DNA from: Malachius bipustulatus
Lineage: Eukaryota; Arthropoda; Insecta; Coleoptera; Melyridae
Direction: 5' to 3'
Assembly (NCBI GenBank): GCA_910589415.1
Contig: OU342639.1
Coordinates: 14,392,268 to 14,456,267, forward strand
Length of the DNA: 64,000 nt
Shown here in pieces: positions 12,142 to 39,753 of this stretch. The notes under the pieces were generated by a model. The model had not been told where the DNA came from, made no database searches, and saw nothing but the letters and a program-made list of their open reading frames with translations. The translations under genes and the position numbers were made by a program. How positions within the stretch are numbered: the first letter of the stretch is position 1; every line of letters begins with the position of its first letter.

Positions 12142-12149
12142 TTATAAGC
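12142..12149. repeat. Target-site duplication TTATAAGC, left copy
   Basis: The 8 bases directly before the inverted repeat tip ATGTCCCTG are repeated exactly at 39,746-39,753, directly after the right tip. This marks the ends of the transposon. Confidence 0.92.
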
Positions 12150-12282
12150 ATGTCCCTGAAGTTAGATTCGGATTCGGATTCGGTGTACACTCTGGGTCAA
12201 CATTATTAACAATCATATGAAAAACGACTTTATGTAATAATTACTGCTGGCAACCTACAGAAAGACATATCTGGACTTTTGA
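12150..12282 (+). repeat. Left unique terminal inverted repeat tip
   Basis: This 133-bp tip matches the reverse complement of 39,613-39,745 at all but two positions. It starts ATGTCCCTGAAG and contains three tandem GATTCG copies at 12,165-12,182. The terminus and the hexamer cluster are natural candidates for transposase recognition. The tip runs directly into the first 179-bp unit. Confidence 0.92.
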
Positions 12283-15200
12283 ACTTGCAACCCAGAACAA
12301 AGGGGCGCTGTCCCCCTCGAAAATGACGTGAACTTGAAAATTTATTTTCTCTCCTACATTCATAATTAATTAATGGTGACGTCACGCCGGTATTTAAAAA
12401 GCGAATCTATAGCACCAAATGATAGTTAGGAAGCCACTTGAAAACATATCGAAAGCTGCTCACTTGCAACCCAGAACAAAGGGGCGCTGTAACCCTCGAA
12501 AATTACGTAAACTTGAAAATTTATTTTCTCTCCTATATTTGTAATTAATTAATTGCGACGTCACGCCGGTATTTAAAAAGCGAATCTATAGCACCAAATG
12601 ATAGCTAGGAAGCTACTTTAGAACATATCAAAAGCTGCTCACTTGCAAACCAGAACAAAGGGGCGCTGTCACCCTCGAAAATGACGTGAACTTGAAAATT
12701 TATTTTCTCTCCTAGATTCATAATTAATTAATTGCGACGTCACGCCGGTTTTTAAAAAGCGAATCTATAGCACCAAATGATAGTTAGGAAGCTACTTTAG
12801 AACATATCGAAAGCTGCTTACTTGCAAACCAGAACAAAGGGGCGCTGTCACCCTCGAAAATGCCGTGAACTTGAAAATTTATTTTCTCTCCTACATTCAT
12901 AATTAATTAATGGCGACGTCACGCCGGTATTTAAAAAGCGAATCTATAGCACCAAATGATAGTTGGAAAGCCACTCTAAAACATATCGAAGAATGCTTAC
13001 TTGCAACCCAGAACAAAGGGATGCTGTCACCGTCGAAAATTACGCAAACTTGAAAATTTATTTTCTCTCCTACATTCATAATTAATTAATGGCGACGTCA
13101 CGCCGGTTTTTAAAAAGCGAATCTATAGCACCAAATGATAGTTAGGAAGCTACTTTAGAACATATCGAAAGCTGCTTACTTGCAAACCAGAACAAAGGGG
13201 CGCTGTCACCCTCGAAAATGACGTGAACTTGAAAATTTATTTTCTCTCCTACATTCATAATTAATTAATGGCGACGTCACGCCGGTATTTAAAAAGCGAA
13301 TCTATAGCACCAAATGATAGTTAGGAAGCCACTTGAAAACATATCGAAAGCTGCTCACTTGCAACCCAGAACAAAGGGGCGCTGTCACCCTCGAAAATTA
13401 CGTAAACTTGAAAATTTATTTTCTCTCCTAGATTCATAATTAATTAATTGCGACGTCACGCCGGTTTTTAAAAAGCGAATCTATAGCACCAAATAATAGT
13501 TAGGAAGCCACTTGAAAACATATCGAAACCTGCTCACTTGCAACCCAGAACAAAGGGGCGCTGTCACCCTCGAAAATTACGTAAACTTGAAAATTTATTT
13601 TCTCTCCTATATTTGTAATTAATTAATTGCGACGGCACGCCGGTTTTTAAAAAGCAAATCTATAGCACCAAATAATAGTTAGGAAGCCACTTGAAAACAT
13701 ATCGAAACCTGCTCACTTGCAATCCAGAACAAAGGGGCGCTGTCACCCTCGAAAATTACGTAAACTTGAAAATTTATTTTCTCTCCTATATTTGTAATTA
13801 ATTAATTGCGACGGCACGCCGGTATTTAAAAAGCGAATCTATAGCACCAAATGATAGCTAGGAAGCTACTTTAGAACATATCGAAAGCTGCTCACTTGCA
13901 AACCAGAACAAAGGGGCGCTGTCACCCTCGAAAATGACGTGAACTTGAAAATTTATTTTCTCTCCTACATTCATAATTAATTAATGGTGACGTCACGCCG
14001 GTATTTAAAAAGCGAATCTATAGCACCAAATGATAGTTAGGAAGCCACTTGAAAACATATCGAAAGCTGCTCACTTGCAACCCAGAACAAAGGGGCGCTG
14101 TAACCCTCGAAAATGACATGAACTTGAAAATTTATTTTCTCTCCTATATTTGTAATTAATTAATTGCGACGTCACGCCGGTATTTAAAAAGCGAATCTAT
14201 AGCACCAAATGATAGCTAGGAAGCTACTTTAGAACATATCAAAAGCTGCTCACTTGCAAACCAGAACAAAGGGGCGCTGTCACCCTCGAAAATGACGTGA
14301 ACTTGAAAATTTATTTTCTCTCCTAGATTCATAATTAATTATTTGCGACGTCACGCCGGTTTTTAAAAAGCGAATCTATAGCACCAAATGATAGTTAGGA
14401 AGCTACTTTAGAACATATCGAAAGCTGCTTACTTGCAAACCAGAACAAAGGGGCGCTGTCACCCTCGAAAATGCCGTGAACTTGAAAATTTATTTTCTCT
14501 CCTACATTCATAATTAATTAATGGCGACGTCACGCCGGTATTTAAAAAGCGAATCTATAGCACCAAATGATAGTTGGAAAGCCACTCTAAAACATATCGA
14601 AGAATGCTTACTTGCAACCCAGAACAAAGGGATGCTGTCACCGTCGAAAATTACGCAAACTTGAAAATTTATTTTCTCTCCTACATTCATAATTAATTAA
14701 TTGCGACGTCACGCCGGTTTTTAAAAAGCGAATCTATAGCACCAAATGATAGTTAGGAAGCTACTTTAGAACATATCGAAAGCTGCTCACTTGCAAACCA
14801 GAACAAAGGGGCGCTGTCACCCTCGAAAATGACGTGAACTTGAAAATTTATTTTCTCTCCTACATTCATAATTAATTAATGGCGACGTCACGCCGGTATT
14901 TAAAAAGCGAATCTATAGCACCAAATGATAGTTAGGAAGCCACTTGAAAACATATCGAAAGCTGCTCACTTGCAACCCAGAACAAAGGGGCGCTGTCACC
15001 CTCGAAAATTACGTAAACTTGAAAATTTATTTTCTCTCCTAGATTCATAATTAATCAATTGCGACGTCACGCCGGTTTTTAAAAAGCGAATCTATAGCAC
15101 CAAATGATAGTTAGGAAGCCACTTGAAAACATATCGAAACCTGCTCACTTGCAACCCAGAACAAAGGGGCGCTGTCACCCTCGAAAATTACGTAAACTTG

Positions 15201-18200
15201 AAAATTTATTTTCTCTCCTATATTTGTAATTAATTAATTGCGACGGCACGCCGGTATTTAAAAAGCGAATCTATAGCACCAAATGATAGCTAGGAAGCTA
15301 CTTTAGAACATATCGAAAGCTGCTCACTTGCAAACCAGAACAAAGGGGCGCTGTCACCCTCGAAAATGACGTGAACTTGAAAATTTATTTTCTCTCCTAC
15401 ATTCATAATTAATTAATGGCGACGTCACGCCGGTATTTAAAAAGCGAATCTATAGCACCAAATGATAGTTAGGAAGCCACTTGAAAACATATCGAAAGCT
15501 GCTCGCTTGCAAACCAGAACAAAGGGGCGCTGTCACCCTCGAAAATGACGTGAACTTGAAAATTTATTTTCTCTCCTAGATTCATAATTAATTAATTGCG
15601 ACGTCACGCCGGTTTTTAAAAAGCGAATCTATAGCACCAAATGATAGTTAGGAAGCTACTTTAGAACATATCGAAAGCTGCTTACTTGCAAACCAGAACA
15701 AAGGGGCGCTGTCACCCTCGAAAATGCCGTGAACTTGAAAATTTATTTTCTCTCCTACATTCATAATTAATTAATGGCGACGTCACGCCGGTATTTAAAA
15801 AGCGAATCTATAGCACCAAATGATAGTTGGAAAGCCACTCTAAAACATATCGAAGAATGCTTACTTGCAACCCAGAACAAAGGGATGCTGTCACCGTCGA
15901 AAATTACGCAAACTTGAAAATTTATTTTCTCTCCTATATTTGTAATTAATTAATTGCGACGGCACGCCGGTATTTAAAAAGCGAATCTATAGCACCAAAT
16001 GATAGCTAGGAAGCTACTTTAGAACATATCAAAAGCTGCTTACTTGCAAACCAGAACAAAGGGGCGCTGTCACCCTCGAAAATGACGTGAACTTGAAAAT
16101 TTATTTTCTCTCCTAGATTCATAATTAATTAATTGCGACGTCACGCCGGTTTTTAAAAAGCGAATCTATAGCACCAAATGATAGTTAGGAAGCTACTTTA
16201 GAACATATCGAAAGCTGCTTACTTGCAAACCAGAACAAAGGGGCGCTGTCACCCTCGAAAATGCCGTGAACTTGAAAATTTATTTTCTCTCCTACATTCA
16301 TAATTAATTAATGGCGACGTCACGCCGGTATTTAAAAAGCGAATCTATAGCACCAAATGATAGTTGGAAAGCCACTCTAAAACATATCGAAGAATGCTTA
16401 CTTGCAACCCAGAACAAAGGGATGCTGTCACCGTCGAAAATTACGCAAACTTGAAAATTTATTTTCTCTCCTATATTTGTAATTAATTAATTGCGACGGC
16501 ACGCCGGTATTTAAAAAGCGAATCTATAGCACCAAATGATAGTTAGGAAGCTACTTTAGAACATATCGAAAGCTGCTTACTTGCAAACCAGAACAAAGGG
16601 GCGCTGTCACCCTCGAAAATGACGTGAACTTGAAAATTAATTTTCTCTCCTAGATTCATAATTAATTAATTGCGACGTCACGCCGGTTTTTAAAAAGCGA
16701 ATCTATAGCACCAAATGATAGTTAGGAAGCTACTTTAGAACATATCGAAAGCTGCTTACTTGCAAACCAGAACAAAGGGGCGCTGTCACCCTCGAAAATG
16801 ACGTGAACTTGAAAATTTATTTTCTCTCCTACATTCATAATTAATTAATGGCGACGTCACGCCGGTATTTAAAAAGCGAATCTATAGCACCAAATGATAG
16901 TTAGGAAGCCACTTGAAAACATATCGAAAGTTGCTCACTTGCAACCCAGAACAAATGGGCGCTGTCACCCTCGAAAATTACGTAAACTTGAAAATTTATT
17001 TTCTCTCCTATATTTGTAATTAATTAATTGCGACGGCACGCCGGTATTTAAAAAGCGAATCTATAGCACCAAATGATAGTTAGGAAGCCACTTGTAAACA
17101 TATCGAAAACTGCTCACTTGCAACCGAGAACAAAGGGGCGCTGTCACCCTCGAAAATTACGTAAACTTGAAAATTTATTTTCTCTCCTAGATTCATAATT
17201 AATTAATTGCGACGTCACGCCGGTTTTTAAAAAGCGAATCTATAGCACCAAATGATAGTTGGAAAGCCACTCTAAAACATATCGAAAGCTGCTCACTTGC
17301 AACCCAGAACAAAGGGGCGCTGTCCCCCTCGAAAATGACGTGAACTTGAAAATTTATTTTCTCTCCTACATTCATAATTAATTAATTGCGACGTGACGCC
17401 GGTTTTTAAAAAGCGAATCTATAGCACCAAATGATAGTTAGGAAGCTACTTTAGAACATATCGAAAGCTGCTCACTTGCAAACCAGAACAAAGGGGCGCT
17501 GTCACCCTCGAAAATGACGTGAACTTGAAAATTTATTTTCTCTCCTACATTCATAATTAATTAATTGCGACGTCACGCCGGTTTTTAAAAAGCGAATCTA
17601 TAGCACCAAATGATAGTTAGGAAGCCACTTTAGAACATATCGAAAGCTGCTCACTTGCAAACCAGAACAAAGGGGCGCTGTCACCGTCGAAAATGACGCA
17701 AACTTGAAGATTTATTTTCTCTCCTACATTCATAATTAATTAATGGCGACGTCACGCCGGTATTTAAAAAGCAAATCTATAGCACCAAATGATAGTTAAG
17801 AAGCCACTTTAAAACATATCGAAAGCTGCTCACTTGCAACCCAGAACAAAGGGACGCTGTCACCGTCGAAAATGACGCAAACTTGAAAATTTATTTTCTC
17901 TCCTACATTCATAATTAATTAATTGCGACGTCACGCCGGTTTTTAAAAAGCGAATCTATAGCACCAAATGATAGTTAGGAAGCTACTTTAGAACATATCG
18001 AAAGCTGCTCACTTGCAAACCAGAACAAAGGGGCGCTGTCACCCTCGAAAATGACGTGAACTTGAAAATTTATTTTCTCTCCTACATTCATAATTAATTA
18101 ATTGCGACGTCACGCCGGTTTTTAAAAAGCGAATCTATAGCACCAAATGATAGTTAGGAAGCTACTTTAGAACATATCGAAAGCTGCTCACTTGCAAACC

Positions 18201-21200
18201 AGAACAAAGGGGCGCTGTCATCCTCGAAAATGACGTGAACTTGAAAATTTATTTTCTCTCCTACATTCATAATTAATTAATGGCGACGTCACGCCGGTAT
18301 TTAAAAAGCGAATCTGTAGCACCAAATGATAGTTATGAAGCCACTTTAGAACATATCGAAAGCTGCTCACTTGCAAACCAGAACAAAGGGGCGCTGTCCC
18401 CGTCGAAAATGACGCAAACTTGAAAATTTATTTTCTCTCCTACATTCATAATTAATTAATGGCGACGTCACGCCGGTATTTAAAAAGCGAATCTGTAGCA
18501 CCAAATGATAGTTATGAAGCCACTTTAGAACATATCGAAAGCTGCTCACTTGCAAACCAGAACAAAGGGGCGCTGTCACCGTCGAAAATGACGCAAACTT
18601 GAAAATTTATTTTCTCTCCTACATTCATAATTAATTAATGGCGACGTCACGCCGGTTTTTAAAAAGCGAATCTATAGCACCAAATGATAGTTAGGAAGCT
18701 ACTTTAGAACATATCGAAAGCTGCTCACTTGCAAACCAGAACAAAGGGGCGCTGTCACCCTCGAAAATGACGTGAACTTGAAAATTTATTTTCTCTCCTA
18801 CATTCATAATTAATTAATGGCGACGTCACGCCGGTATTTAAAAAGCGAATCTATAGCACCAAATGATAGTTGGAAAGCCACTCTAAAACATATCGAAGAA
18901 TGCTCACTTGCAACCCAGAACAAAGGGATGCTGTCACCGTCGAAAATTACGCAAACTTGAAAATTTATTTTCTCTCCTACATTCATAATTAATTAATGGT
19001 GACGTCACGCCGGTATTTAAAAAGCGAATCTATAGCACCAAATGATAGTTATGAAGCCACTTTAGAACATATCGAAAGCTGCTCACTTGCAAACCAGAAC
19101 AAAGGGGCGCTGTCACCGTCGAAAATGACGCAAACTTGAAAATTTATTTTCTCTCCTACATTCATAATTAATTAATGGCGACGTCACGCCGGTTTTTAAA
19201 AAGCGAATCTATAGCACCAAATGATAGTTAGGAAGCTACTTTAGAACATATCGAAAGCTGCTTACTTGCAAACCAGAACAAAGGGGCGCTGTCACCCTCG
19301 AAAATGCCGTGAACTTGAAAATTTATTTTCTCTCCTAGATTCATAATTAATTAATTGCGACGTCACGCCGGTTTTTAAAAAGCGAATCTATAGCACCAAA
19401 TGATAGTTAGGAAGCTACTTTAGAACATATCGAAAGCTGCTCACTTGCAAACCAGAACAAAGGGGCGCTGTCACCCTCGAAAATGACGTGAACTTGAAAA
19501 TTTATTTTCTCTCCTACATTCATAATTAATTAATGGCGACGTCACGCCGGTATTTAAAAAGCGAATCTATAGCACCAAATGATAGTTAGGAAGCCACTTG
19601 AAAACATATCGAAAGTTGCTCACTTGCAACCCAGAACAAATGGGCGCTGTCACCCTCGAAAATTACGTAAACTTGAAAATTTATTTTCTCTCCTATATTT
19701 GTAATTAATTAATTGCGACGGCACGCCGGTATTTAAAAAGCGAATCTATAGCACCAAATGATAGTTAGGAAGCCACTTGTAAACATATCGAAAACTGCTC
19801 ACTTGCAACCGAGAACAAAGGGGCGCTGTCACCCTCGAAAATTACGTAAACTTGAAAATTTATTTTCTCTCCTAGATTCATAATTAATTAATTGCGACGT
19901 CACGCCGGTTTTTAAAAAGCGAATCTATAGCACCAAATGATAGTTGGAAAGCCACTCTAAAACATATCGAAAGCTGCTCACTTGCAACCCAGAACAAAGG
20001 GGCGCTGTCCCCCTCGAAAATGACGTGAACTTGAAAATTTATTTTCTCTCCTACATTCATAATTAATTAATTGCGACGTGACGCCGGTTTTTAAAAAGCG
20101 AATCTATAGCACCAAATGATAGTTAGGAAGCTACTTTAGAACATATCGAAAGCTGCTCACTTGCAAACCAGAACAAAGGGGCGCTGTCATCCTCGAAAAT
20201 GACGTGAACTTGAAAATTTATTTTCTCTCCTACATTCATAATTAATTAATGGCGACGTCACGCCGGTATTTAAAAAGCGAATCTGTAGCACCAAATGATA
20301 GTTATGAAGCCACTTTAGAACATATCGAATGCTGCTCACTTGCAAACCAGAACAAAGGGGCGCTGTCCCCGTCGAAAATGACGCAAACTTGAAAATTTAT
20401 TTTCTCTCCTACATTCATAATTAATTAATGGCGACGTCACGCCGGTATTTAAAAAGCGAATCTGTAGCACCAAATGATAGTTATGAAGCCACTTTAGAAC
20501 ATATCGAAAGCTGCTCACTTGCAAACCAGAACAAAGGGGCGCTGTCACCGTCGAAAATGACGCAAACTTGAAAATTTATTTTCTCTCCTACATTCATAAT
20601 TAATTAATGGCGACGTCACGCCGGTTTTTAAAAAGCGAATCTATAGCACCAAATGATAGTTAGGAAGCTACTTTAGAACATATCGAAAGCTGCTTACTTG
20701 CAAACCAGAACAAAGGGGCGCTGTCACCCTCGAAAATGCCGTGAACTTGAAAATTTATTTTCTCTCCTACATTCATAATTAATTAATGGCGACGTCACGC
20801 CGGTATTTAAAAAGCGAATCTATAGCACCAAATGATAGTTGGAAAGCCACTCTAAAACATATCGAAGAATGCTCACTTGCAACCCAGAACAAAGGGATGC
20901 TGTCACCGTCGAAAATTACGCAAACTTGAAAATTTATTTTCTCTCCTACATTCATAATTAATTAATGGTGACGTCACGCCGGTATTTAAAAAGCGAATCT
21001 ATAGCACCAAATGATAGTTATGAAGCCACTTTAGAACATATCGAAAGCTGCTCACTTGCAAACCAGAACAAAGGGGCGCTGTCACCGTCGAAAATGACGC
21101 AAACTTGAAAATTTATTTTCTCTCCTACATTCATAATTAATTAATGGCGACGTCACGCCGGTTTTTAAAAAGCGAATCTATAGCACCAAATGATAGTTAG

Positions 21201-21785
21201 GAAGCTACTTTAGAACATATCGAAAGCTGCTTACTTGCAAACCAGAACAAAGGGGCGCTGTCACCCTCGAAAATGCCGTGAACTTGAAAATTTATTTTCT
21301 CTCCTACATTCATAATTAATTAATGGCGACGTCACGCCGGTATTTAAAAAGCGAATCTATAGCACCAAATGATAGTTGGAAAGCCACTCTAAAACATATC
21401 GAAGAATGCTCACTTGCAACCCAGAACAAAGGGATGCTGTCACCGTCGAAAATTACGCAAACTTGAAAATTTATTTTCTCTCCTACATTCATAATTAATT
21501 AATTGCGACGTCACGCCGGTTTTTAAAAAGCGAATCTATAGCACCAAATGATAGTTAGGAAGCTACTTTAGAACATATCGAAAGCTGCTCACTTGCAACC
21601 CAGAACAAAGGGGCGCTGTCACCCTCGAAAATTACGTAAACTTGAAAATTTATTTTCTCTCCTATATTTGTAATTATTAATTGCGACGGCACGCCGGTAT
21701 TTAAAAAGCGAATCTATAGCACCAAATGATAGTTGGAAAGCCACTCTAAAACATATCGAAGGATGCTCACTTGCAAACTAGAACA
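12283..21785 (+). repeat. Left array: about 53 tandem 179-bp units
   Basis: The landmark ACTTGCAA starts at 12,283, 12,462, 12,641 and 12,820, giving a period of 179 bp that persists to 21,769. Each unit holds GGGGCGCTGTCACC, an AATTAATTAATT block, a GACGTCACGCCGG site and TTTAAAAAGCGAATC. Units differ by a small set of linked variants (GATGCTGTCACCGTC versus GCGCTGTCACCCTC, TACATTCATAATT versus TATATTTGTAATT), so there are subfamilies. Blocks recur at whole-unit spacing: 1,969 bp (11 units) and 2,685 bp (15 units), showing segmental duplication inside the array. No coding function is visible; open frames that cross units are chance. Confidence 0.95.
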
Positions 21786-22443
21786 CATTCTTTCCGACTT
21801 TAAATAATTCAAGATATTGTGTGTACAGAATGATTAATTACTAAAAAAAAAAAATACGTCATCAACTATCTTCATCTGTATAATGCATGGAGTGTGGAAC
21901 AGCCAATTGTAATAAATTCATTACCTACTTTAGTTGTTAATTTTGTAGCATTGAAAAAACCCTAAAGAGTCCATTCTTATATTTAATTTAATTTAATTTA
22001 TATTCAAAATTGACGTAACATTTTTTTGTAAAAGTTGCATTGTCCTTTTTTTAAAATTATTGTATACATATATGTTACAGTTAAAACCCGTTTTCCGTTA
22101 GAACTAGTTTTCCCTAGTTAAAACTCGTTTTTACTAATAGGCTTTGTTAAAACTAGAAATACCTAGTCAAAACTAGAATTTACCACTGATATATTTTACC
22201 GATTTTTACAAATTTTATGATTTAACAATAATTTGCAAGAACTTTTGAAGATTTTAATCACAATTTTTGTAAGTATAAAATTTACATCATTATAAGACCT
22301 ACCTATGTACTAAATTTCAATATTGTTAATCATTTTATAGAGAGCCTTGAAGAAGAAGTAAATAAAATTCGAAAGCTTGGCGTAGAAAAAAGAGTGTTCT
22401 TTTCTTAAAACATTCCCAAATAATTGCTAATATCACATATAAG

Positions 22444-22818
22444 GGTGGAGTGCTAGAACGCTAATTAAAGATTTGTCAGATAATAATTATTGATTTTAAA
22501 TTGCAAATTTTGAAAATAGGGTGAATATTTTGAATGGTCTTTCATTTTTTATCAGTAATTAACTCTTCTAAAAGGGGGTAGAGTTTATTTCCAGGAATAT
22601 CAGACCAACACATCACCGTAGGTAGGTCTTAATGAGTATAAAGACAATTAATAGCCTGTCGAATTGGAATCGGGTTTTAACCCATCGTCCTGACAGTTGT
22701 CAAGTCTGGAGCGCCCGAGAACCCAAATTTTTTGACAGACCAACATTTTGACAATACAGGACATTTTAAAATCAGTAATTATCTGGCAGATCTGTAATTA
22801 ACGTTCTAGCACTCCACC
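22444..22818. mobile_element. MITE-like element, imperfect inverted repeats, nested in the core
   Basis: Inverted repeats of about 55 bp start GGTGGAGTGCTAGAACG at 22,444 and end with the complementary sequence at 22,818. The arms have a few mismatches. The 375-bp element has no open frame of note. No clear target duplication was seen. Confidence 0.75.
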
Positions 22819-22852
22819 GATATTGTTGTATATTGTTACTAATATTAGTATA

Positions 22853-23495
22853 CAGGATGTATTGTAACGTCCGCATAATATTAGCACCACGCGATTCTAC
22901 ATCAAAAACAGAACAAAAAAGTCCTCAACAGTTTTTTCTTGATGTACACAGATTTTAAGATATGGACAATTTAACGTTCTTGAATTTTGCAACACTGGCG
23001 CTGGTATAAAAATTAAGATAACTTATTAGACGTGAAGTCACCTCACTGGTATAGTGTGCGTTGCTATGTAATCGAAAAAAGGTGCAACAAGACAAATGTC
23101 ATGCTGCGACGTGTCAATGTTGCAATTTTTTTAAAGATTTTTTATTTTTTCAATTTTTTATTCAACAATTAAAACGCGCAGTTGCAATATTGATTGGAAG
23201 TATTGGAACTCAGGAAATCAAATAATTCCTATAGTTTTGAAATGTTAATTAAAATCATTTTTACCAAAAAAAATCTAAAATTTTGGATAATTTGGCTATT
23301 TTACTTCTTACTGAAGAATTTTTTAATAATATTAAGCAATATTTTTGAGTATTAAAAAACTTCAAATTTAAACTACAATGGTCGATAACTTCGTTATTTG
23401 AGGTCTAAGAGCTAAACGGTATTAAAACTTTATGTTCTGTTTTTGATGTAGAATCACGTGGTGCTAATATTATGCGGACGTTACAATACACCCTG
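22853..23495. mobile_element. Non-autonomous DNA transposon flanked by TA
   Basis: The 643-bp element has roughly 62-bp inverted repeats that start CAGGATGTATTGTAACGTCC on the left; the right arm, reversed, starts CAGGGTGTATTGTAACG. Both end in ATCAAAAACAGAAC. TA lies on each side (22,851-22,852 and 23,496-23,497), as expected for Tc1/mariner-like movement. The interior has no long ORF, so it would need a transposase from elsewhere. Confidence 0.85.
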
Positions 23496-23834
23496 TATTA
23501 TTGTATTTTCATATTACGTGACAATATCCAATAAGAATGGTTTTAATAGTTGTAGTACAAAATGAGTAAGTCATGAGTTACAAAAAAGTGAAAATCGCAA
23601 TTCTTCATTTTGAAGGCAGCTGATATTGGAATTGGCCCCAAATACTGCGCGGAAAACGACTTACGCGTCCCTGTTTCAACTTTCTATGTACTATTATATG
23701 ATGTAGATGAAAGTGTTACATAGGGTGAAAAAATTAGATAATTTTCATCACCCTGTATTAAACTTTAAACCACATGTAGGATATGTAAAAAGTGAAGGTA
23801 GGGACATGGAAGTCGTTTCTTCAATGTTTGGAGC

Positions 23835-24046
23835 GGGATTAACAATTTGTCCAATTAAATAGGTCTGGAAACATATTGGTAATTTAAATGAATTAAAAAA
23901 AATATATATTTTCGTCAACTATTTTGTGGACATAACATCTGTCAAAGAAAATAGTTGACGAAATTTTTATTTTAATTTTTTTTATTTAAATTGCTAATAA
24001 TTAGGTATGTTTCCAGACCTATTTAATTGGTCAAATTGTTAATCCC
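23835..24046. mobile_element. Palindromic element of about 212 bp
   Basis: The left arm starts GGGATTAACAATTTGTCCAA and the right arm ends with its near complement (AATTGGTCAAATTGTTAATCCC, here split by numbering). The arms are about 95 bp and the middle is a short unpaired stretch. The right arm abuts a hammerhead-like motif at 24,044-24,076. Confidence 0.75.
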
Positions 24047-24076
24047 GAAGATGACCCAAATTGTTTGGTCGAAACG
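24044..24076 (+). ncRNA. Degenerate hammerhead-like core, as in Penelope-type 3' ends
   Basis: CCGAAGA, then TGACC and GGTC able to pair across a short loop, then GAAAC. This resembles the CUGANGA-stem II-GAAA core that Penelope-like retroelements carry. The first motif has CCGA for CUGA, so activity is unlikely. Stems I and III were not established. Confidence 0.3.
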
Positions 24077-25343: not shown

Positions 25344-25369
25344 TTTAGTGTATGTAATCATACACTAAA
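25344..25369. repeat. Small hairpin upstream of the transposon ORF
   Basis: Perfect 11-bp stem TTTAGTGTATG / CATACACTAAA with a TAAT loop. Its role is unknown. Confidence 0.6.
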
Positions 25370-25728
25370 TTTTTTATTTCAATAGACACTTTGTCGGTGA
25401 CGTTTTTTGGTGTTTTTTGAAAACAATAAACAAAAAACAATAAAACACAGACAAAACTGTCTCTGTGGTAAACATCTACATACCATATATATTATTACTT
25501 TCATTTTTATTATATTTTGCTGTCTTATTTCATTGATGCGAGAGGTGGTGTTTTAGAATTATTGTATATGGGTTTTCTTTTATCATAGAAAGAGTTTTTT
25601 TTTTGTATACTGCTGTTTGAGGACATGCGTGAAGGTTTCTCACACTTCTAGTGTATTAATTATTGTTACATTATTGTTCGTTTAACGCAGTTATTTGTCT
25701 TGTATAAATACTGAACTTCCCAACAGTT

Positions 25729-28700: not shown

Positions 28701-29535
28701 GTCTGATAAAAAACAAACAATAAATATTGATGATTGGTGGGTCAAATCAGTAGAATTTTGTCCAAAGCAACAGGACTCTGTCAATTGTGGTGTCTACGTC
28801 TTGTATTTCCTACATTCTTTAAGTCAAACGAAAGATATCACAAAACTTGAAGAGTTTTTTCAAACATATCCACTATACCCTGAAAAATTTAGGGTTTCTT
28901 TACAACAACTTCTCCTGCTTTCCTCAGTTCACATGAAATCCGTTTGTTTGAATTGTGGTAATAAGAGTTCTATGGAATCCATTCTTAGATGTCAGCATTG
29001 CCAGAGGTACATTCACGAGAGAACGTGTAAAACTACATCACCAGTTTCTATAAATAATAGAACCTGCTCATTGTGTGTAGGTTGTAATACTCCATTTAAG
29101 TTTGTCAGCTCTAACTTGATGGTTTATCTAGAACCTCTGATTTTAGAGCATTTCGTTATCCATCACACGCAATATCTCACAAGAATACTAAGCACGAAGG
29201 ACAATAATGAAGAATTTAGACGATTTCGGGAAATAAATGACTACAAGAGTCATTTAAAATGGGATCGCTCAACGGCTTTCTTTGATTTTGAATCTTCAGT
29301 GGAAGTTGCTAAATCGATAAAAAAACACTTACAAGCTGACTGCGTTTATATTTGCTATGTCCTTCTGGGAATTATTAATAAAAAAATATTCCACGCTTAC
29401 TACGGTATTCCAGAAAGTGTGCATGATATGATGTCTTACTACGGACAACTCAATAACATTGAATCATTTACTTATGATTATCCATCTCCTTACACACTTG
29501 ACAACGTATTGGAGCAAATTAACGTAACTGAATAG
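25729..29535 (+). CDS. Transposase-like protein with Ulp1-type protease and PHD-like finger (1,268 aa)
   Basis: This intact single frame is the only long ORF in the giant element, so it is the likely mobility protein. Residues 181-215 hold a possible zinc-binding C/H cluster (C188, C201, H203, C206). Residues about 345-660 look like an RNase H-fold transposase: FDATG with D357, VVTDWS with D429, a CCC-x-H cluster (C473-C475, H477) as in MULE-type enzymes, and SNVECWF with E650. Residues about 875-1,045 match Ulp1/SENP cysteine proteases: LHWY (H948), LDSG (D965), Q1014/Q1015 and NCGVYVL (C1020), all four catalytic positions present. Residues 1,073-1,119 form a PHD-like finger (CxxC, CxxC, H1096, C1100, CxxC). 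The last 150 residues are unassigned. The start is the first ATG of the frame; the next methionine is at 327. AATAAA lies at 29,834. The exact transposase superfamily (MULE- or KDZ-like) is not settled. Confidence 0.9.
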   Translation: MALSKTILSSIVDLLFKNLPFGTFEDVLRLDVKSEIFQILANHLRKHHSHLKYPSQVYRTLHRYELTIREAFENRLSTNLNNTQTSVNDHQEIVTGKIAHDIEDQSKVGLNEPVKYSNEKDLNSNNEVNEVSELDSRHEFLYLQKKLTVFSLEQHLNCVNVSFLSRHSYLRKNLFSLNIYCVVIFKGCHLRSKQLVEYGVCKHSNCRKFRFEYKVCNGYIEQVTVKFDKEEVSHDSEVYAYQLRGEERKEAKNKLLNILPNTLRSADIKDADSEALRSGNWDKIKSLDVYQKARSEAKSELDLDKNSYLDLVLRCIREPEHQRYVQMPNGETLVYLFTKQQIDLLVSRGKRVVAYFDATGSVVYPIKRGSRVYYYALVINMDGKIIPIAELISSQHDSATLSCFFIHLKRFITVSLRKTWAPFSVVVTDWSFALITGVCFGFNEITLYRYLNIVFNFLHNKSTDIVNLIILRCCCAHFIKMVVNRLSKTKIKKETKKLLIEMMSCLVAAESLDSLTSLVRGLMTILINSHVTSNVQAALSIFKENCAEREQQLSLDDFEDLYEDSMESERERGKYTESPFYLYFFKIYREVVEEMESGDYHATEEKNQFHSQEFAKYLLNTCLPFAPLWTGLLNSLTGHQGRRISNSNVECWFKIVKKDILCNDRRLKIGRFVQKIQERLEIIIKSIEMEIHTKLQNKLKVKTDSATDDLKMQVDQPLEVETWKPKRSKESYFSTKRLKKLPENKRAPKTTKELVHDVHTVSFSHFENTFVKDKIAHFFKSTDTGHKTNLNDTANAYEDETTDTQVRSTDGLIKDDMFCYLDNGLLFSNNYYLVGEIITKRNFVFGMYQYGGHTLKLHSSSYVSLISDCNYDLPKPTEMKDRWLTDECIDAVAYSLLGHHSDIYYIDAVASTLLFSKQCDEFRQFEPFTKSFDNIRFITIPVNVRNLHWYLLILDLQSKTIHVLDSGVAQSHSAVAIKQTIAYLFKFRNELSDKKQTINIDDWWVKSVEFCPKQQDSVNCGVYVLYFLHSLSQTKDITKLEEFFQTYPLYPEKFRVSLQQLLLLSSVHMKSVCLNCGNKSSMESILRCQHCQRYIHERTCKTTSPVSINNRTCSLCVGCNTPFKFVSSNLMVYLEPLILEHFVIHHTQYLTRILSTKDNNEEFRRFREINDYKSHLKWDRSTAFFDFESSVEVAKSIKKHLQADCVYICYVLLGIINKKIFHAYYGIPESVHDMMSYYGQLNNIESFTYDYPSPYTLDNVLEQINVTE

Positions 29536-29651
29536 TTTTGAATATACATATCCATCAACAGAACAAAATGGGGTTTGTTTGTTATGATCTAATACCTGAA
29601 ATTTGCTCCGCGTGTATCAAAAAAAAAAAAAATTACTTTTCAGCCTTCATA

Positions 29652-29753
29652 TACGAAGGCGTAGAAGCGCCACACGAGTTTTATTTTTAAAATTCCGAGT
29701 TTAAACTCGGAATTTTAAAAATAAAACTCGTGTGGCGCTTCTACGCCTTCGTA
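29652..29753. mobile_element. Perfect 102-bp palindrome with TTCATA on both sides
   Basis: Two 51-bp arms with no spacer and no mismatch, centred between 29,702 and 29,703 (CCGAGTTT/AAACTCGG). TTCATA occurs directly at 29,646-29,651 and again at 29,754-29,759, so it can be read as a tiny insertion with a 6-bp duplication. It lies 117 bp after the transposon ORF stop and before the AATAAA at 29,834, so transcripts of the ORF would carry it as a very stable 3' hairpin. Confidence 0.85.
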
Positions 29754-29833
29754 TTCATACACAAAAAATAACTATTAAGTATTTTAAAAGTAAGATATAA
29801 ACGAACTAAGAAGTTGTTCGTTACATCTGAATG

Positions 29834-29839
29834 AATAAA
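29834..29839 (+). promoter_or_regulatory. Candidate polyadenylation signal AATAAA for the transposon ORF
   Basis: First clear AATAAA after the stop codon at 29,535 and just before the right array. Position fits; use is inferred. Confidence 0.45.
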
Positions 29840-29895
29840 ATTCTTTCGCACATCATAACATTTTTAAATTGATACATTTGAAGAGTGAAGACTTT

Positions 29896-32800
29896 TTACG
29901 TCATTTTCGAGGGTGACAGGGCCCCTTTGTTCTGGTTTGCAAGCGAGCAGCTCTCGATATGTTTACAAGTGGCTTCCTAACTATCATTTGGTGCTATAGA
30001 TTCGCTTTTTAAAAACCGGCGTGACGTCGCTATTAATTAATTATGAATGTAGGAGAGAAAATAAATTTTCAAGTTCACGTCATTTTCGAGGGTGACAGCG
30101 CCCCTTTGTTCTGGGTTGCAAGTGAGCAGCTTTCGATATGTTTTCAAGTGGCTTCCTAAGTATCATTTGGTGCTATAGATTCGCTTTTTAAATACCGGCG
30201 TGACGTCGCTATTAATTAATTATGAATGTAGGAGAGAAAATAAATTTTCAAAAGTTCACGTCATTTTCGACGGTGACAGCGCCCCTTTGTTCTGGGTTGC
30301 AAGTGAGCAGCTTTCGATATGTTTTAGAGTGGCTTTCCAACTATCATTTGGTGCTATAGATTCGCTTTTTAAAAACCGGCGTGACGTCGCAATTAATTAA
30401 TTATGAATCTAGGAGAGAAAATAAATTTTCAAGTTTACGTAATTTTCGAGGGTGACAGCGCCCCTTTGTTCTCGGTTGCAAGTGAGCAGTTTTCGATATG
30501 TTTACAAGTGGCTTCCTAACTATCATTTGGTGCTATAGATTCGCTTTTTAAATACCGGCGTGCCGTCGCAATTAATTAATTACAAATATAGGAGAGAAAA
30601 TAAATTTTCAAGTTTACGTAATTTTCGAGGGTGACAGCGCCCATTTGTTCTGGGTTGCAAGTGAGCAACTTTCGATATGTTTTCAAGTGGCTTCCTAACT
30701 ATCATTTGGTGCTATAGATTCGCTTTTTAAATACCGGCGTGACGTCGCCATTAATTAATTATGAATGTAGGAGAGAAAATAAATTTTCAAGTTCACGTCA
30801 TTTTCGAGGGTGACAGCGCCCCTTTGTTCTGGTTTGCAAGTGAGCAGCTTTCGATATGTTCTAAAGTAGCTTCCTAACTATCATTTGGTGCTATAGATTC
30901 GCTTTTTAAAAACCGGCGTGACGTCGCAATTAATTAATTATGAATCTAGGAGAGAAAATAAATTTTCAAGTTCACGTCATTTTCGAGGGTGACAGCGCCC
31001 CTTTGTTCGGGTTTGCAAGTGAGCAGCTTTCGATATGTTCTAAAGTAGCTTCCTAGCTATCATTTGGTGCTATAGATTCGCTTTTTAAATACCGGCGTGC
31101 CGTCGCAATTAATTAATTACAAATATAGGAGAGAAAATAAATTTTCAAGTTTGCGTAATTTTCGACGGTGACAGCATCCCTTTGTTCTGGGTTGCAAGTA
31201 AGCATTCTTCGATATGTTTTAGAGTGGCTTTCCAACTATCATTTGGTGCTATAGATTCGCTTTTTAAATACCGGCGTGACGTCGCCATTAATTAATTATG
31301 AATGTAGGAGAGAAAATAAATTTTCAAGTTCACGGCATTTTCGAGGGTGACAGCGCCCCTTTGTTCTGGTTTGCAAGTAAGCAGCTTTCGATATGTTCTA
31401 AAGTAGCTTCCTAACTATCATTTGGTGCTATAGATTCGCTTTTTAAAAACCGGCGTGACGTCGCAATTAATTAATTATGAATCTAGGAGAGAAAATAAAT
31501 TTTCAAGTTCACGTCATTTTCGAGGGTGACAGCGCCCCTTTGTTCTGGTTTGCAAGTGAGCAGCTTTTGATATGTTCTAAAGTAGCTTCCTAGCTATCAT
31601 TTGGTGCTATAGATTCGCTTTTTAAATACCGGCGTGCCGTCGCAATTAATTAATTACAAATATAGGAGAGAAAATAAATTTTCAAGTTTGCGTAATTTTC
31701 GACGGTGACAGCATCCCTTTGTTCTGGGTTGCAAGTAAGCATTCTTCGATATGTTTTAGAGTGGCTTTCCAACTATCATTTGGTGCTATAGATTCGCTTT
31801 TTAAATACCGGCGTGACGTCGCCATTAATTAATTATGAATGTAGGAGAGAAAATAAATTTTCAAGTTCACGGCATTTTCGAGGGTGACAGCGCCCCTTTG
31901 TTCTGGTTTGCAAGTAAGCAGCTTTCGATATGTTCTAAAGTAGCTTCCTAACTATCATTTGGTGCTATAGATTCGCTTTTTAAAAACCGGCGTGACGTCG
32001 CAATTAATTAATTATGAATCTAGGAGAGAAAATAAATTTTCAAGTTCACGTCATTTTCGAGGGTGACAGCGCCCCTTTGTTCTGGTTTGCAAGTGAGCAG
32101 CTTTCGATATGTTTTCAAGTGGCTTCCTAACTATCATTTGGTGCTATAGATTCGCTTTTTAAATACCGGCGTGACGTCACCATTAATTAATTATGAATGT
32201 AGGAGAGAAAATAAATTTTCAAGTTCACGTCATTTTCGAGGGTGACAGCGCCCCTTTGTTCTGGTTTGCAAGTGAGCAGCTTTCGATATATTCTAAAGTA
32301 GCTTCCTAGCTATCATTTGGTGCTATAGATTCGCTTTTTAAATACCGGCGTGCCGTCGCAATTAATTAATTACAAATATAGGAGAGAAAATAAATTTTCA
32401 AGTTTACGTAATTTTCGAGGGTGACAGCGCCCCTTTGTTCTGGGTTGCAAGTGAGCAGGTTTCGATATGTTTTCAAGTGGCTTCCTAACTATCATTTGGT
32501 GCTATAGATTCGCTTTTTAAAAACCGGCGTGACGTCGCAATTGATTAATTATGAATCTAGGAGAGAAAATAAATTTTCAAGTTTACGTAATTTTCGAGGG
32601 TGACAGCGCCCCTTTGTTCTGGGTTGCAAGTGAGCAGCTTTCGATATGTTTTAAAGTGGCTTCCTAACTATCATTTGGTGCTATAGATTCGCTTTTTAAA
32701 TACCGGCGTGACGTCGCCATTAATTAATTATGAATGTAGGAGAGAAAATAAATTTTCAAGTTCACGTCATTTTCGAGGGTGACAGCGCCCCTTTGTTCTG

Positions 32801-35800
32801 GTTTGCAAGTGAGCAGCTTTCGATATGTTCTAAAGTAGCTTCCTAACTATCATTTGGTGCTATAGATTCGCTTTTTAAAAACCGGCGTGACGTCGCAATT
32901 AATTAATTATGAATGTAGGAGAGAAAATAAATTTTCAAGTTTGCGTAATTTTCGACGGTGACAGCATCCCTTTGTTCTGGGTTGCAAGTAAGCATTCTTC
33001 GATATGTTTTAGAGTGGCTTTCCAACTATCATTTGGTGCTATAGATTCGCTTTTTAAATACCGGCGTGACGTCGCCATTAATTAATTATGAATGTAGGAG
33101 AGAAAATAAATTTTCAAGTTCACGGCATTTTCGAGGGTGACAGCGCCCCTTTGTTCTGGTTTGCAAGTAAGCAGCTTTCGATATGTTCTAAAGTAGCTTC
33201 CTAGCTATCATTTGGTGCTATAGATTCGCTTTTTAAAAACCGGCGTGACGTCGCAATTAATTAATTATGAATCTAGGAGAGAAAATAAATTTTCAAGTTC
33301 ACGTCATTTTCGAGGGTGACAGCGCCCCTTTGTTCTGGTTTGCAAGTGAGCAGCTTTTGATATGTTCTAAAGTAGCTTCCTAGCTATCATTTGGTGCTAT
33401 AGATTCGCTTTTTAAATACCGGCGTGACGTCGCAATTAATTAATTACAAATATAGGAGAGAAAATAAATTTTCAAGTTTACGTAATTTTCGAGGGTTACA
33501 GCGCCCCTTTGTTCTGGGTTGCAAGTGAGCAGCTTTCGATATGTTTTCAAGTGGCTTCCTAACTATCATTTGGTGCTATAGATTCGCTTTTTAAATACCG
33601 GCGTGACGTCACCATTAATTAATTATGAATGTAGGAGAGAAAATAAATTTTCAAGTTCACGTCATTTTCGAGGATGACAGCGCCCCTTTGTTCTGGTTTG
33701 CAAGTGAGCAGCTTTCGATATGTTCTAAAGTAGCTTCCTAACTATCATTTGGTGCTATAGATTCGCTTTTTAAAAACCGGCGTGACGTCGCAATTAATTA
33801 ATTATGAATGTAGGAGAGAAAATAAATTTTCAAGTTCACGTCATTTTCGAGGGTGACAGCGCCCCTTTGTTCTGGTTTGCAAGTGAGCAGCTTTCGATAT
33901 GTTCTAAAGTAGCTTCCTAACTATCATTTGGTGCTATAGATTCGCTTTTTAAAAACCGGCGTGACGTCGCAATTAATTAATTAAGAATGTAGGAGAGAAA
34001 ATAAATTTTCAAGTTTGCGTCATTTTCGACGGTGACAGCGTCCCTTTGTTCTGGGTTGCAAGTGAGCAGCTTTCGATATGTTTTAAAGTGGCTTCTTAAC
34101 TATCATTTGGTGCTATAGATTTGCTTTTTAAATACCGGCGTGACGTCGCCATTAATTAATTATGAATGTAGGAGAGAAAATAAATCTTCAAGTTTGCGTC
34201 ATTTTCGACGGTGACAGCGCCCCTTTGTTCTGGTTTGCAAGTGAGCAGCTTTCGATATGTTCTAAAGTGGCTTCCTAACTATCATTTGGTGCTATAGATT
34301 CGCTTTTTAAAAACCGGCGTGACGTCGCAATTAATTAATTATGAATGTAGGAGAGAAAATAAATTTTCAAGTTCACGTCATTTTCGAGGGTGACAGCGCC
34401 CCTTTGTTCTGGTTTGCAAGTGAGCAGCTTTCGATATGTTCTAAAGTAGCTTCCTAACTATCATTTGGTGCTATAGATTCGCTTTTTAAAAACCGGCGTC
34501 ACGTCGCAATTAATTAATTATGAATGTAGGAGAGAAAATAAATTTTCAAGTTCACGTCATTTTCGAGGGTGACAGCGCCCCTTTGTTCTGGGTTGCAAGT
34601 GAGCAGCTTTCGATATGTTTTAGAGTGGCTTTCCAACTATCATTTGGTGCTATAGATTCGCTTTTTAAAAACCGGCGTGACGTCGCAATTAATTAATTAT
34701 GAATCTAGGAGAGAAAATAAATTTTCAAGTTTACGTAATTTTCGAGGGTGACAGCGCCCCTTTGTTCTCGGTTGCAAGTGAGCAGTTTTCGATATGTTTA
34801 CAAGTGGCTTCCTAACTATCATTTGGTGCTATAGATTCGCTTTTTAAATACCGGCGTGCCGTCGCAATTAATTAATTACAAATATAGGAGAGAAAATAAA
34901 TTTTCAAGTTTACGTAATTTTCGAGGGTGACAGCGCCCATTTGTTCTGGGTTGCAAGTGAGCAACTTTCGATATGTTTTCAAGTGGCTTCCTAACTATCA
35001 TTTGGTGCTATAGATTCGCTTTTTAAATACCGGCGTGACGTCGCCATTAATTAATTATGAATGTAGGAGAGAAAATAAATTTTCAAGTTCACGTCATTTT
35101 CGAGGGTGACAGCGCCCCTTTGTTCTGGTTTGCAAGTGAGCAGCTTTCGATATGTTCTAAAGTAGCTTCCTAACTATCATTTGGTGCTATAGATTCGCTT
35201 TTTAAAAACCGGCGTGACGTCGCAATTAATTAATTATGAATCTAGGAGAGAAAATTAATTTTCAAGTTCACGTCATTTTCGAGGGTGACAGCGCCCCTTT
35301 GTTCTGGTTTGCAAGTGAGCAGCTTTCGATATGTTCTAAAGTAGCTTCCTAGCTATCATTTGGTGCTATAGATTCGCTTTTTAAATACCGGCGTGCCGTC
35401 GCAATTAATTAATTACAAATATAGGAGAGAAAATAAATTTTCAAGTTTGCGTAATTTTCGACGGTGACAGCATCCCTTTGTTCTGGGTTGCAAGTAAGCA
35501 TTCTTCGATATGTTTTAGAGTGGCTTTCCAACTATCATTTGGTGCTATAGATTCGCTTTTTAAATACCGGCGTGACGTCGCCATTAATTAATTATGAATG
35601 TAGGAGAGAAAATAAATTTTCAAGTTCACGGCATTTTCGAGGGTGACAGCGCCCCTTTGTTCTGGTTTGCAAGTAAGCAGCTTTCGATATGTTCTAAAGT
35701 AGCTTCCTAACTATCATTTGGTGCTATAGATTCGCTTTTTAAAAACCGGCGTGACGTCGCAATTAATTAATTATGAATCTAGGAGAGAAAATAAATTTTC

Positions 35801-38800
35801 AAGTTCACGTCATTTTCGAGGGTGACAGCGCCCCTTTGTTCTGGTTTGCAAGTGAGCAGCTTTTGATATGTTCTAAAGTAGCTTCCTAGCTATCATTTGG
35901 TGCTATAGATTCGCTTTTTAAATACCGGCGTGCCGTCGCAATTAATTAATTACAAATATAGGAGAGAAAATAAATTTTCAAGTTTGCGTAATTTTCGACG
36001 GTGACAGCATCCCTTTGTTCTGGGTTGCAAGTAAGCATTCTTCGATATGTTTTAGAGTGGCTTTCCAACTATCATTTGGTGCTATAGATTCGCTTTTTAA
36101 ATACCGGCGTGACGTCGCCATTAATTAATTATGAATGTAGGAGAGAAAATAAATTTTCAAGTTCACGGCATTTTCGAGGGTGACAGCGCCCCTTTGTTCT
36201 GGTTTGCAAGTAAGCAGCTTTCGATATGTTCTAAAGTAGCTTCCTAACTATCATTTGGTGCTATAGATTCGCTTTTTAAAAACCGGCGTGACGTCGCCAT
36301 TAATTAATTATGAATGTAGGAGAGAAAATAAATTTTCAAGTTCACGTCATTTTCGAGGGTGACAGCGCCCCTTTGTTCTGGTTTGCAAGTGAGCAGCTTT
36401 CGATATGTTTTCAAGTGGCTTCCTAACTATCATTTGGTGCTATAGATTCGCTTTTTAAATACCGGCGTGACGTCGCCATTAATTAATTATGAATGTAGGA
36501 GAGAAAATAAATTTTCAAGTTCACGTCATTTTCGAGGGTGACAGCGCCCCTTTGTTCTGGTTTGCAAGTGAGCAGCTTTCGATATGTTCTAAAGTAGCTT
36601 CCTAACTATCATTTGGTGCTATAGATTCGCTTTTTAAATACCGGCGTGCCGTCGCAATTAATTAATTACAAATATAGGAGAGAAAATAAATTTTCAAGTT
36701 TACGTAATTTTCGAGGGTGACAGCGCCCCTTTGTTCTGGGTTGCAAGTGAGCAGCTTTCGATATGTTTTCAAGTGGCTTCCTAACTATCATTTGGTGCTA
36801 TAGATTCGCTTTTTAAAAACCGGCGTGACGTCGCAATTGATTAATTATGAATCTAGGAGAGAAAATAAATTTTCAAGTTTACGTAATTTTCGAGGGTGAC
36901 AGCGCCCCTTTGTTCTGGTTTGCAAGTGAGCAGCTTTCGATATGTTTTCAAGTGGCTTCCTAACTATCATTTGGTGCTATAGATTCGCTTTTTAAATACC
37001 GGCGTGACGTCGCCATTAATTAATTATGAATGTAGGAGAGAAAATAAATTTTCAAGTTCACGTCATTTTCGAGGGTGACAGCGCCCCTTTGTTCTGGTTT
37101 GCAAGTGAGCAGCTTTCGATATGTTCTAAAGTAGCTTCCTAACTATCATTTGGTGCTATAGATTCGCTTTTTAAAAACCGGCGTGACGTCGCAATTAATT
37201 AATTATGAATGTAGGAGAGAAAATAAATTTTCAAGTTTGCGTAATTTTCGACGGTGACAGCATCCCTTTGTTCTGGGTTGCAAGTAAGCATTCTTCGATA
37301 TGTTTTAGAGTGGCTTTCCAACTATCATTTGGTGCTATAGATTCGCTTTTTAAATACCGGCGTGACGTCGCCATTAATTAATTATGAATGTAGGAGAGAA
37401 AATAAATTTTCAAGTTCACGGCATTTTCGAGGGTGACAGCGCCCCTTTGTTCTGGTTTGCAAGTAAGCAGCTTTCGATATGTTCTAAAGTAGCTTCCTAA
37501 CTATCATTTGGTGCTATAGATTCGCTTTTTAAAAACCGGCGTGACGTCGCAAATAATTAATTATGAATCTAGGAGAGAAAATAAATTTTCAAGTTCACGT
37601 CATTTTCGAGGGTGACAGCGCCCCTTTGTTCTGGTTTGCAAGTGAGCAGCTTTTGATATGTTCTAAAGTAGCTTCCTAGCTATCATTTGGTGCTATAGAT
37701 TCGCTTTTTAAATACCGGCGTGACGTCGCAATTAATTAATTACAAATATAGGAGAGAAAATAAATTTTCAAGTTTACGTAATTTTCGAGGGTTACAGCGC
37801 CCCTTTGTTCTGGGTTGCAAGTGAGCAGCTTTCGATATGTTTTCAAGTGGCTTCCTAACTATCATTTGGTGCTATAGATTCGCTTTTTAAATACCGGCGT
37901 GACGTCGCCATTAATTAATTATGAATGTAGGAGAGAAAATAAATTTTCAAGTTCACGTCATTTTCGAGGGTGACAGCGCCCCTTTGTTCTGGTTTGCAAG
38001 TGAGCAGCTTTCGATATGTTCTAAAGTAGCTTCCTAGCTATCATTTGGTGCTATAGATTCGCTTTTTAAATACCGGCGTGCCGTCGCAATTAATTAATTA
38101 CAAATATAGGAGAGAAAATAAATTTTCAAGTTTACGTAATTTTCGAGGGTGACAGCGCCCCTTTGTTCTGGATTGCAAGTGAGCAGGTTTCGATATGTTT
38201 TCAAGTGGCTTCCTAACTATTATTTGGTGCTATAGATTTGCTTTTTAAAAACCGGCGTGCCGTCGCAATTAATTAATTACAAATATAGGAGAGAAAATAA
38301 ATTTTCAAGTTTACGTAATTTTCGAGGGTGACAGCGCCCCTTTGTTCTGGGTTGCAAGTGAGCAGGTTTCGATATGTTTTCAAGTGGCTTCCTAACTATT
38401 ATTTGGTGCTATAGATTCGCTTTTTAAAAACCGGCGTGACGTCGCAATTAATTAATTATGAATCTAGGAGAGAAAATAAATTTTCAAGTTTACGTAATTT
38501 TCGAGGGTGACAGCGCCCCTTTGTTCTGGGTTGCAAGTGAGCAGCTTTCGATATGTTTTCAAGTGGCTTCCTAACTATCATTTGGTGCTATAGATTCGCT
38601 TTTTAAATACCGGCGTGACGTCGCCATTAATTAATTATGAATGTAGGAGAGAAAATAAATTTTCAAGTTCACGTCATTTTCGAGGGTGACAGCGCCCCTT
38701 TGTTCTGGTTTGCAAGTGAGCAGCTTTCGATATGTTCTAAAGTAGCTTCCTAGCTATCATTTGGTGCTATAGATTCGCTTTTTAAATACCGGCGTGACGT

Positions 38801-39612
38801 CGCAATTAATTAATTATGAATGTAGGAGAGAAAATAAATTTTCAAGTTTGCGTAATTTTCGACGGTGACAGCATCCCTTTGTTCTGGGTTGCAAGTAAGC
38901 ATTCTTCGATATGTTTTAGAGTGGCTTTCCAACTATCATTTGGTGCTATAGATTCGCTTTTTAAATACCGGCGTGACGTCGCCATTAATTAATTATGAAT
39001 GTAGGAGAGAAAATAAATTTTCAAGTTCACGTCATTTTCGAGGGTGACAGCGCCCCTTTGTTCTGGTTTGCAAGTAAGCAGCTTTCGATATGTTCTAAAG
39101 TAGCTTCCTAACTATCATTTGGTGCTATAGATTCGCTTTTTAAAAACCGGCGTGACGTCGCAATTAATTAATTATGAATGTAGGAGAGAAAATAAATTTT
39201 CAAGTTCACGTCATTTTCGAGGGTGACAGCGCCCCTTTGTTCTGGTTTGCAAGTGAGCAGCTTTTGATATGTTCTAAAGTAGCTTCCTAGCTATCATTTG
39301 GTGCTATAGATTCGCTTTTTAAATACCGGCGTGACGTCGCAATTAATTAATTACAAATATAGGAGAGAAAATAAATTTTCAAGTTTACGTAATTTTCGAG
39401 GGTTACAGCGCCCCTTTGTTCTGGGTTGCAAGTGAGCAGCTTTCGATATGTTTTCAAGTGGCTTCCTAACTATCATTTGGTGCTATAGATTCGCTTTTTA
39501 AATACCGGCGTGACGTCACCATTAATTAATTATGAATGTAGGAGAGAAAATAAATTTTCAAGTTCACGTCATTTTCGAGGGGGACAGCGCCCCTTTGTTC
39601 TGGGTTGCAAGT
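29896..39612 (-). repeat. Right array: about 54 tandem 179-bp units, inverted to the left array
   Basis: The complementary landmark TTGCAAGT starts at 29,937 (as TTGCAAGC) and recurs every 179 bp to 39,605. The units are the same as in the left array, read on the other strand. Rare variants sit at the same distance from the outer end in both arms (for example the GTTCTCGG form near 34,766 here and its complement near 17,119 on the left), so the outer parts are collinear. A block repeats inside this arm at 4,296 bp (24 units: 30,431 and 34,727), a spacing different from the left arm. One 2-bp insertion is seen near 30,251. Confidence 0.95.
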
Positions 39613-39745
39613 TCAAAAGTCCAGATATGTCTTTCTGTAGGTTGCCAGCAGTAATTATTACATAAAGTCGTTTTTCTTATGATTGTCAATAATGTTGACC
39701 CAGAGTGTACACCGAATCCGAATCCGAATCTAACTTCAGGGACAT
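39613..39745 (-). repeat. Right unique terminal inverted repeat tip
   Basis: Reverse complement of the left tip with two differences. It ends CTTCAGGGACAT and contains the three CGAATC copies at about 39,713-39,730. Confidence 0.92.
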
Positions 39746-39753
39746 TTATAAGC
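39746..39753. repeat. Target-site duplication TTATAAGC, right copy
   Basis: Exact direct copy of 12,142-12,149, immediately outside the right tip. Confidence 0.92.

Follow-up and report, generated by a model that had tools for sequence, protein, structure and literature searches.

A 27.6-kb transposon with inverted satellite arms in Malachius bipustulatus, probably a Rehavkus-like Mutator element

The window analyzed here is a stretch of 64,000 nucleotides from the beetle Malachius bipustulatus (GCA_910589415.1, contig OU342639.1, forward strand), which is C17:14392268-14456267 in the contig names used below and contains no N. Between its positions 12150 and 39745 lies E1, a transposon of 27,596 bp in which two inverted satellite arrays surround a core with one long open reading frame (ORF). 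A first-pass annotation of this DNA had described an exact 8-bp repeat outside nearly identical 133-bp tips, about 53 and 54 inverted units of 179 bp and an 8.1-kb core with an intact ORF, and all of these are present in the sequence; the share of about 70% that it gave to tandem arrays agrees with the 71% of E1 taken up by arrays and tips together. The features of the element are, by window position:

12142-12149, no strand: left target site duplication TTATAAGC, an exact match to the right copy
12150-12282, plus strand: left unique tip of 133 bp, beginning ATGTCCCTGAAG, with 2/133 mismatches to the right tip
12283-21785, plus strand: left satellite arm, 53 units of 179 bp (Tandem Repeats Finder)
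21786-29897, plus strand: core of 8112 bp between the arms
25729-29535, plus strand: transposase ORF of 1268 amino acids, intact, the only long ORF in the core
Transposase residues ~151-282: WRKY-like fold
Transposase residues D357, D429, C474/H477 and E650: RNase H-like DDE domain
Transposase residues 927-1039 (Pfam stretch; H948, D965, Q1014, C1020): Ulp1-like protease, in frame with the transposase
Transposase C-terminal: PHD-type Cys/His cluster
29651-29754, no strand: perfect palindrome of 104 bp within the core, regarded as an insert and not as part of the transposition unit
29898-39612, minus strand: right satellite arm, 54 units of 179 bp, inverted (Tandem Repeats Finder)
39613-39745, minus strand: right unique tip of 133 bp, the mate of the left tip
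39746-39753, no strand: right target site duplication TTATAAGC, an exact match to the left copy

The target site duplication abuts both tips, which begin with ATGTCCCTGAAG in inverted orientation. Tandem Repeats Finder counted 53.1 copies of the unit on the left and 54.3 on the right, with 93% matches; by a unit-head motif the arms hold 53 and 55 units, or 54 and 55 when more mismatches are allowed. Array length in E1 is given as assembled.

The WRKY/FLYWCH type of DNA-binding domain is typical of the Mutator superfamily (Mutator-like elements, MULEs). The four residues named for the Ulp1-like domain are presumably its catalytic residues. Pfam PHD was found in four of eight aligned proteins at E values up to 10 (best 0.00085); the window protein itself has no such match, and its Cys and His residues align with those of the PHD-matching proteins, so that a PHD-type finger can be assigned to it. 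A PIG-S match in the same protein fell below the cut-off and was taken as chance. Foldseek rows at E ~0.01 were not used by themselves.

Copies in the genome and turnover of the arms

The assembly (544 Mb, 52 contigs) was searched with the left tip and with the right tip, with 40 of 80 candidates scored for each. By pairing left and right matches by eye, based on position and orientation, we found at least 21 two-ended elements of 4.6-27.6 kb; among the matches listed, two tips have no partner (C17:5189217 and C4:13319443). Ten of the 21 placed elements (E1-E10) were read whole, and all ten have the ends characteristic of the foldback group, which are long, inverted and composite and contain variable tandem repeats. 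Perfect target duplications were found in 15/15 elements with both flanks available, 8 bp long in 14 of them and 9 bp in one (E4), all different, and a chance origin of the TTATAAGC match was therefore rejected. The search that the first-pass annotation had proposed, for copies with the same ends and with different duplications and array lengths, thus confirms its view of E1 as a DNA transposon. When the 15 joined sites were compared with the loci that were read, E6 gave clear empty sites within related repeats (one beside E5, with 95.2% over 187 bp spanning the junction, and a second elsewhere, with 92.4% over 171 bp), E5 gave partial junction-crossing matches and the other 13 gave none.

The sister copy E2 (C17:14505798-14533354) lies ~74 kb from E1 and is inverted relative to it. 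Its target duplication is TGAAAATA and its flanks are unrelated to those of E1, and local duplication of a chromosome segment was rejected as the origin of the pair on these grounds; the 27.6-kb copy is inserted twice. The unit counts of E2, 53 and 55, are identical to those of E1 by the same count. Over 27.6 kb the two copies differ by 43 substitutions and one 39-bp deletion, with 41 substitutions in the arrays, two beside the deletion in the palindrome and none in the remaining core of ~7.9 kb or slightly more (P ~5e-8 if they were uniform). In 39/41 of the array substitutions, both alleles occur in two or more units of the element that they belong to; for random changes, a generous estimate of the fraction that would produce an allele already present is 0.40. 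These differences can be the result either of fast unit-to-unit conversion or of polishing that shifted variants between units.

Among the matches listed for the ORF (37 of 165 candidates scored), three copies have at least 97% identity. It is intact in E1 and E2, in line with the earlier description of the element as autonomous, and in E7 it has one frame change and one stop. E1 and E7 differ by 17 synonymous and 14 non-synonymous changes (ratio of non-synonymous to synonymous rates, pN/pS, 0.21; 2 codons skipped), and the gene was therefore under constraint. The other seven elements read whole (E3-E6 and E8-E10) are non-autonomous internal-deletion derivatives, which retain the tips, the arms and part of the left core and have lost the ORF. 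Four of these, E3, E4, E5 and E8 (C16:12.05, C1:90.5, C4:3.1 and C1:46.1 Mb), have a common interruption of ~3.4-3.5 kb at core position ~800, and thus seem to be one non-autonomous sub-lineage that is spreading an inserted passenger. In E6 (C20:251582-266383) the left-core segment occurs twice, in opposite orientations, which makes a large part of the element one palindrome.

The arms themselves change by blocks. In E1, the first 33 units of the left arm (L1-33) mirror those of the right arm (R1-33), with 22 mismatches over 5907 bp, and further inside the arms are unlike because each has block duplications of its own: R34-52 is a copy of units 10-28 (24-unit shift, 14 mismatches in 3401 bp), and on the left L33-39 are repeated as L44-50 and L25-29 as L40-44. 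Such matches within an arm indicate that it grows by multi-unit block duplication, independently on each side. A long mirror copy was found only in E1 and E2 among the ten elements, with E6 showing one over 6 units and E7 over ~3, in an ungapped comparison in register that would miss a mirror copy shifted by an insertion or deletion. Arm length varies from 9 to 84 units across the ten copies and the two arms of one copy are often unequal (29/84 or 18/9, for example). E3 (26.5 kb, 29/84 units) and E4 (20.3 kb, 34/47 units; counts left/right in own orientation, E4 being inverted relative to E3) are close relatives with few mismatches in their outer and inner blocks, and E3 has a duplicated 34-unit block in comparison with E4: E4 units 2-11 have matches in E3R 2-11 and again in E3R 36-45, and E4 units 12-26 in E3R 19-33 and again in E3R 53-67. 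No free-standing unit array was found among the matches listed (of 576), all of which are in tip-bearing loci (22/58 candidate places scored). The best motif common to tip and unit is 8 bp long (TAGATTCG), which is at chance level and gives no support for binding to the units.

Related loci and classification

A protein search listed at least 41 matches in the assembly. Three further loci were read, chosen by their ORF and not by arrays, and in 3/3 of them (29-56% identity) inverted arrays flank the transposase on both sides. The relative at C2:1.82 Mb (56% identity over residues 151-741 and 47% over 758-1264) has units of 336-347 bp in 7.1 and 9.3 copies; a target duplication was looked for at this locus and not found. 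At C6:20.3 Mb (29% identity) there are 165-bp units in 13.4 and 42.6 copies, ~16.0 kb in all, with ATGAAACAT as a candidate 9-bp duplication, and at C16:21.0 Mb (32% identity) 153-bp units in at least 23.1 and at least 41.7 copies, both arrays running past the sequence read. The unit sequences of the four families show no resemblance above chance. In 12 comparisons for a motif common to them the best p was 0.02, which is not significant after 12 tests, and a CTTGCAAACC match between the 179-bp and 347-bp units had p 0.06 and 0.08 in two runs. That the 347-bp unit consists of two half units was not supported, as its half-to-half score of 5.5 is below the highest of 60 shuffles (7.5). The right flank of E6 is similar to the tip of the C2:1.8 Mb relative. 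At C3:36889847-36899206 two related ORFs with identical scores stand in opposite orientation, separated by ~3 kb, and contig C42 has a similar pair.

Satellite units in the inverted termini of a DNA transposon have been described in Tribolium castaneum, where Rehavkus-1_TC is 9.5 kb long and has a 164-bp satellite, mostly as five and eight monomers (PMC10218199), in comparison with 53 and 54 units in the 27.6 kb of E1. The Rehavkus group, known from arthropods and annelids, is characterized by a PHD finger, a minisatellite and a 9-bp duplication (PMC6446971). E1 has the tandem repeats in its inverted ends and the PHD-type Cys/His residues, whereas its family has 9 bp in only 1/15 copies and 8 bp in 14/15. 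Because of this duplication length, and because Rehavkus was compared by description only, we use the label Rehavkus-like and not Rehavkus. All 15 duplications are within the 8-11 bp range of Mutator elements (PMC6446971). The DDE domain, Ulp1, PHD and WRKY-like fold fit a Rehavkus-like Mutator element, and together with the published precedents this led us to reject a new superfamily. With a probability of roughly 0.85, we consider E1 to be a Rehavkus-like transposon of the Mutator superfamily that moves autonomously by cut and paste and has giant foldback arms.

Inverted ends made of tandem repeats with variable copy number are also known from FB/NOF and Galileo of Drosophila, which have short units or terminal inverted repeats (TIRs) on the kb scale; Galileo has a P-type transposase. 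Arrays of tandem units in the inverted ends have been reported as a general feature of foldback elements (PMC3169594). Tetris/DAIBAM of the Drosophila virilis group, with ~220-bp tandem units in inverted ends, shares with E1 the foldback arms of tandem units, duplications of 8-10 bp, length change by unit duplication and a link to satellite DNA (PMC4079207). It differs in TIRs of up to 1.7 kb and in that, as far as its available description goes, the transposase is not known; according to the same paper, its long arrays of up to 66 copies are satellite arrays that were born within Tetris and may have disrupted it (PMC4079207). Tm1 of Meloidogyne likewise combines a Mutator-type transposase with composite foldback ends, whose repeats are variable, and has 9-bp duplications and non-autonomous kin, yet its internal motif has ~14 bp, its transposase is a 496-amino-acid protein of Phantom type with FLYWCH and MULE domains, and neither Ulp1 nor PHD is named for it in the available part of the report (PMC3169594). 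An Ulp1-type protease domain in a Mutator-like element is known from KAONASHI, the Ulp1-carrying plant MULEs; the KI-MULE Ulp1 domain is reverse-oriented and discussed as transduplicated, in contrast to the in-frame domain of E1 (PMC2528002). The "new type" of transposon that the first-pass annotation had seen in E1 thus has precedents in print in Rehavkus-1_TC (PMC10218199), Tetris (PMC4079207) and the foldbacks (PMC3169594). Rather, E1 is a recently mobile, extreme form of a known and little-studied kind of insect transposon, and what is new against the precedents, among the papers searched, is its scale, the fact that it is intact, and the occurrence of one design in several transposase lineages of the same genome.

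Possible roles of the arms

The size of cut-and-paste elements is thought to have a limit, since transposition becomes less efficient as the ends lie further apart (PMC6431247), and complete elements in a survey of arthropod MULEs were 1.4-10.0 kb long (PMC13359780). Against these limits stands a 27.6-kb element with two near-identical copies, each with its separate insertion mark. Four transposase lineages in one genome, with unlike satellites at the same position, also offer a natural series for the birth, amplification, homogenisation and movement of satellite DNA. The proposed mechanism is that the WRKY-like domain of the 1268-amino-acid protein binds the 133-bp tips and its DDE domain does the cutting and joining, and that the arms help to bring the very distant ends together or to load the transposase, which may keep an element as large as E1 mobile. 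Blocks of units would be added through unequal exchange or out-of-register gap repair, and one arm may at times be overwritten by the other, leaving a mirror copy such as that of 33 units.

Nearly as likely as this helper role is that the arms are neutral and no more than baggage: unequal exchange amplified a foldback tip repeat, nothing but the 133-bp tips counts, and the giants are accidents at the top of the range of lengths. This option competes with the helper role alone and is compatible with the rest of our reading. The wide range of arm length in the ten copies, the unequal arms of single copies, the unlike unit sequences of the related families and the lack of any above-chance motif common to tip and unit all agree with it. 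Yet baggage need not recur in every lineage, and inverted arrays were found in all three related loci, with units of 153, 165 and 336-347 bp. A more tentative view, which we hold for somewhat less probable than neutral arms, is that the satellite arm is a constitutive and selected part of the transposon, with a lineage-specific unit near one nucleosome length (153, 165 and 179 bp), where length and phasing rather than sequence would matter. The 336-347-bp unit would then be of about double nucleosome length, although the half-unit test was negative. If this is true, the arms could be, for example, a platform for chromatin or synapsis that enables transposition of elements of 16-28 kb, and the elements would be mobile factories of new satellite DNA.

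Two other explanations bear on the element as such and are much less probable. The transposase could belong to another superfamily with 8-bp duplications, P or hAT, the likeness to Rehavkus being foldback convergence as in Galileo. The 8-bp duplication fits P/hAT and rows for the P element and Hermes were present in the structure comparison; the 20 Pfam families that were listed for eight proteins include no P or hAT domain. We regard this explanation as improbable. It is slightly more improbable still that the array length or the 33-unit mirror copy is an artefact, either of mis-assembly or of misplaced reads during polishing. Misplaced reads could give allele swaps such as those that separate the arrays of E1 and E2 next to an unchanged core; such an artefact is however difficult to reconcile with identical unit counts at two loci with different flanks, with E1 arms that differ from each other inside and with ten whole-read copies that differ in length and flanks.

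Smaller repeats in the window

The 104-bp palindrome in the core of E1 looks like a small, unstable palindromic insert. It has TTCATA on either side, and the 39-bp deletion of E2 is in its centre. In E7 it is missing, with a 6-bp overlap at the junction; this absence rests on BLAST coordinates, as a string look-up for the site in E7 gave no match.

Outside the element, ORF fragments at 7043-7561 (minus strand), 49174-49899 (minus strand) and 58927-59403 (plus strand) resemble what we take to be parts of non-LTR (long terminal repeat) retrotransposons. An 82-nt inverted repeat, 94% complementary and with 38 nt spacing, is located at 54154-54355. At 8856-9166 there are nested inverted repeats with arms that are 98% and 92% complementary, which look like a small non-autonomous element.
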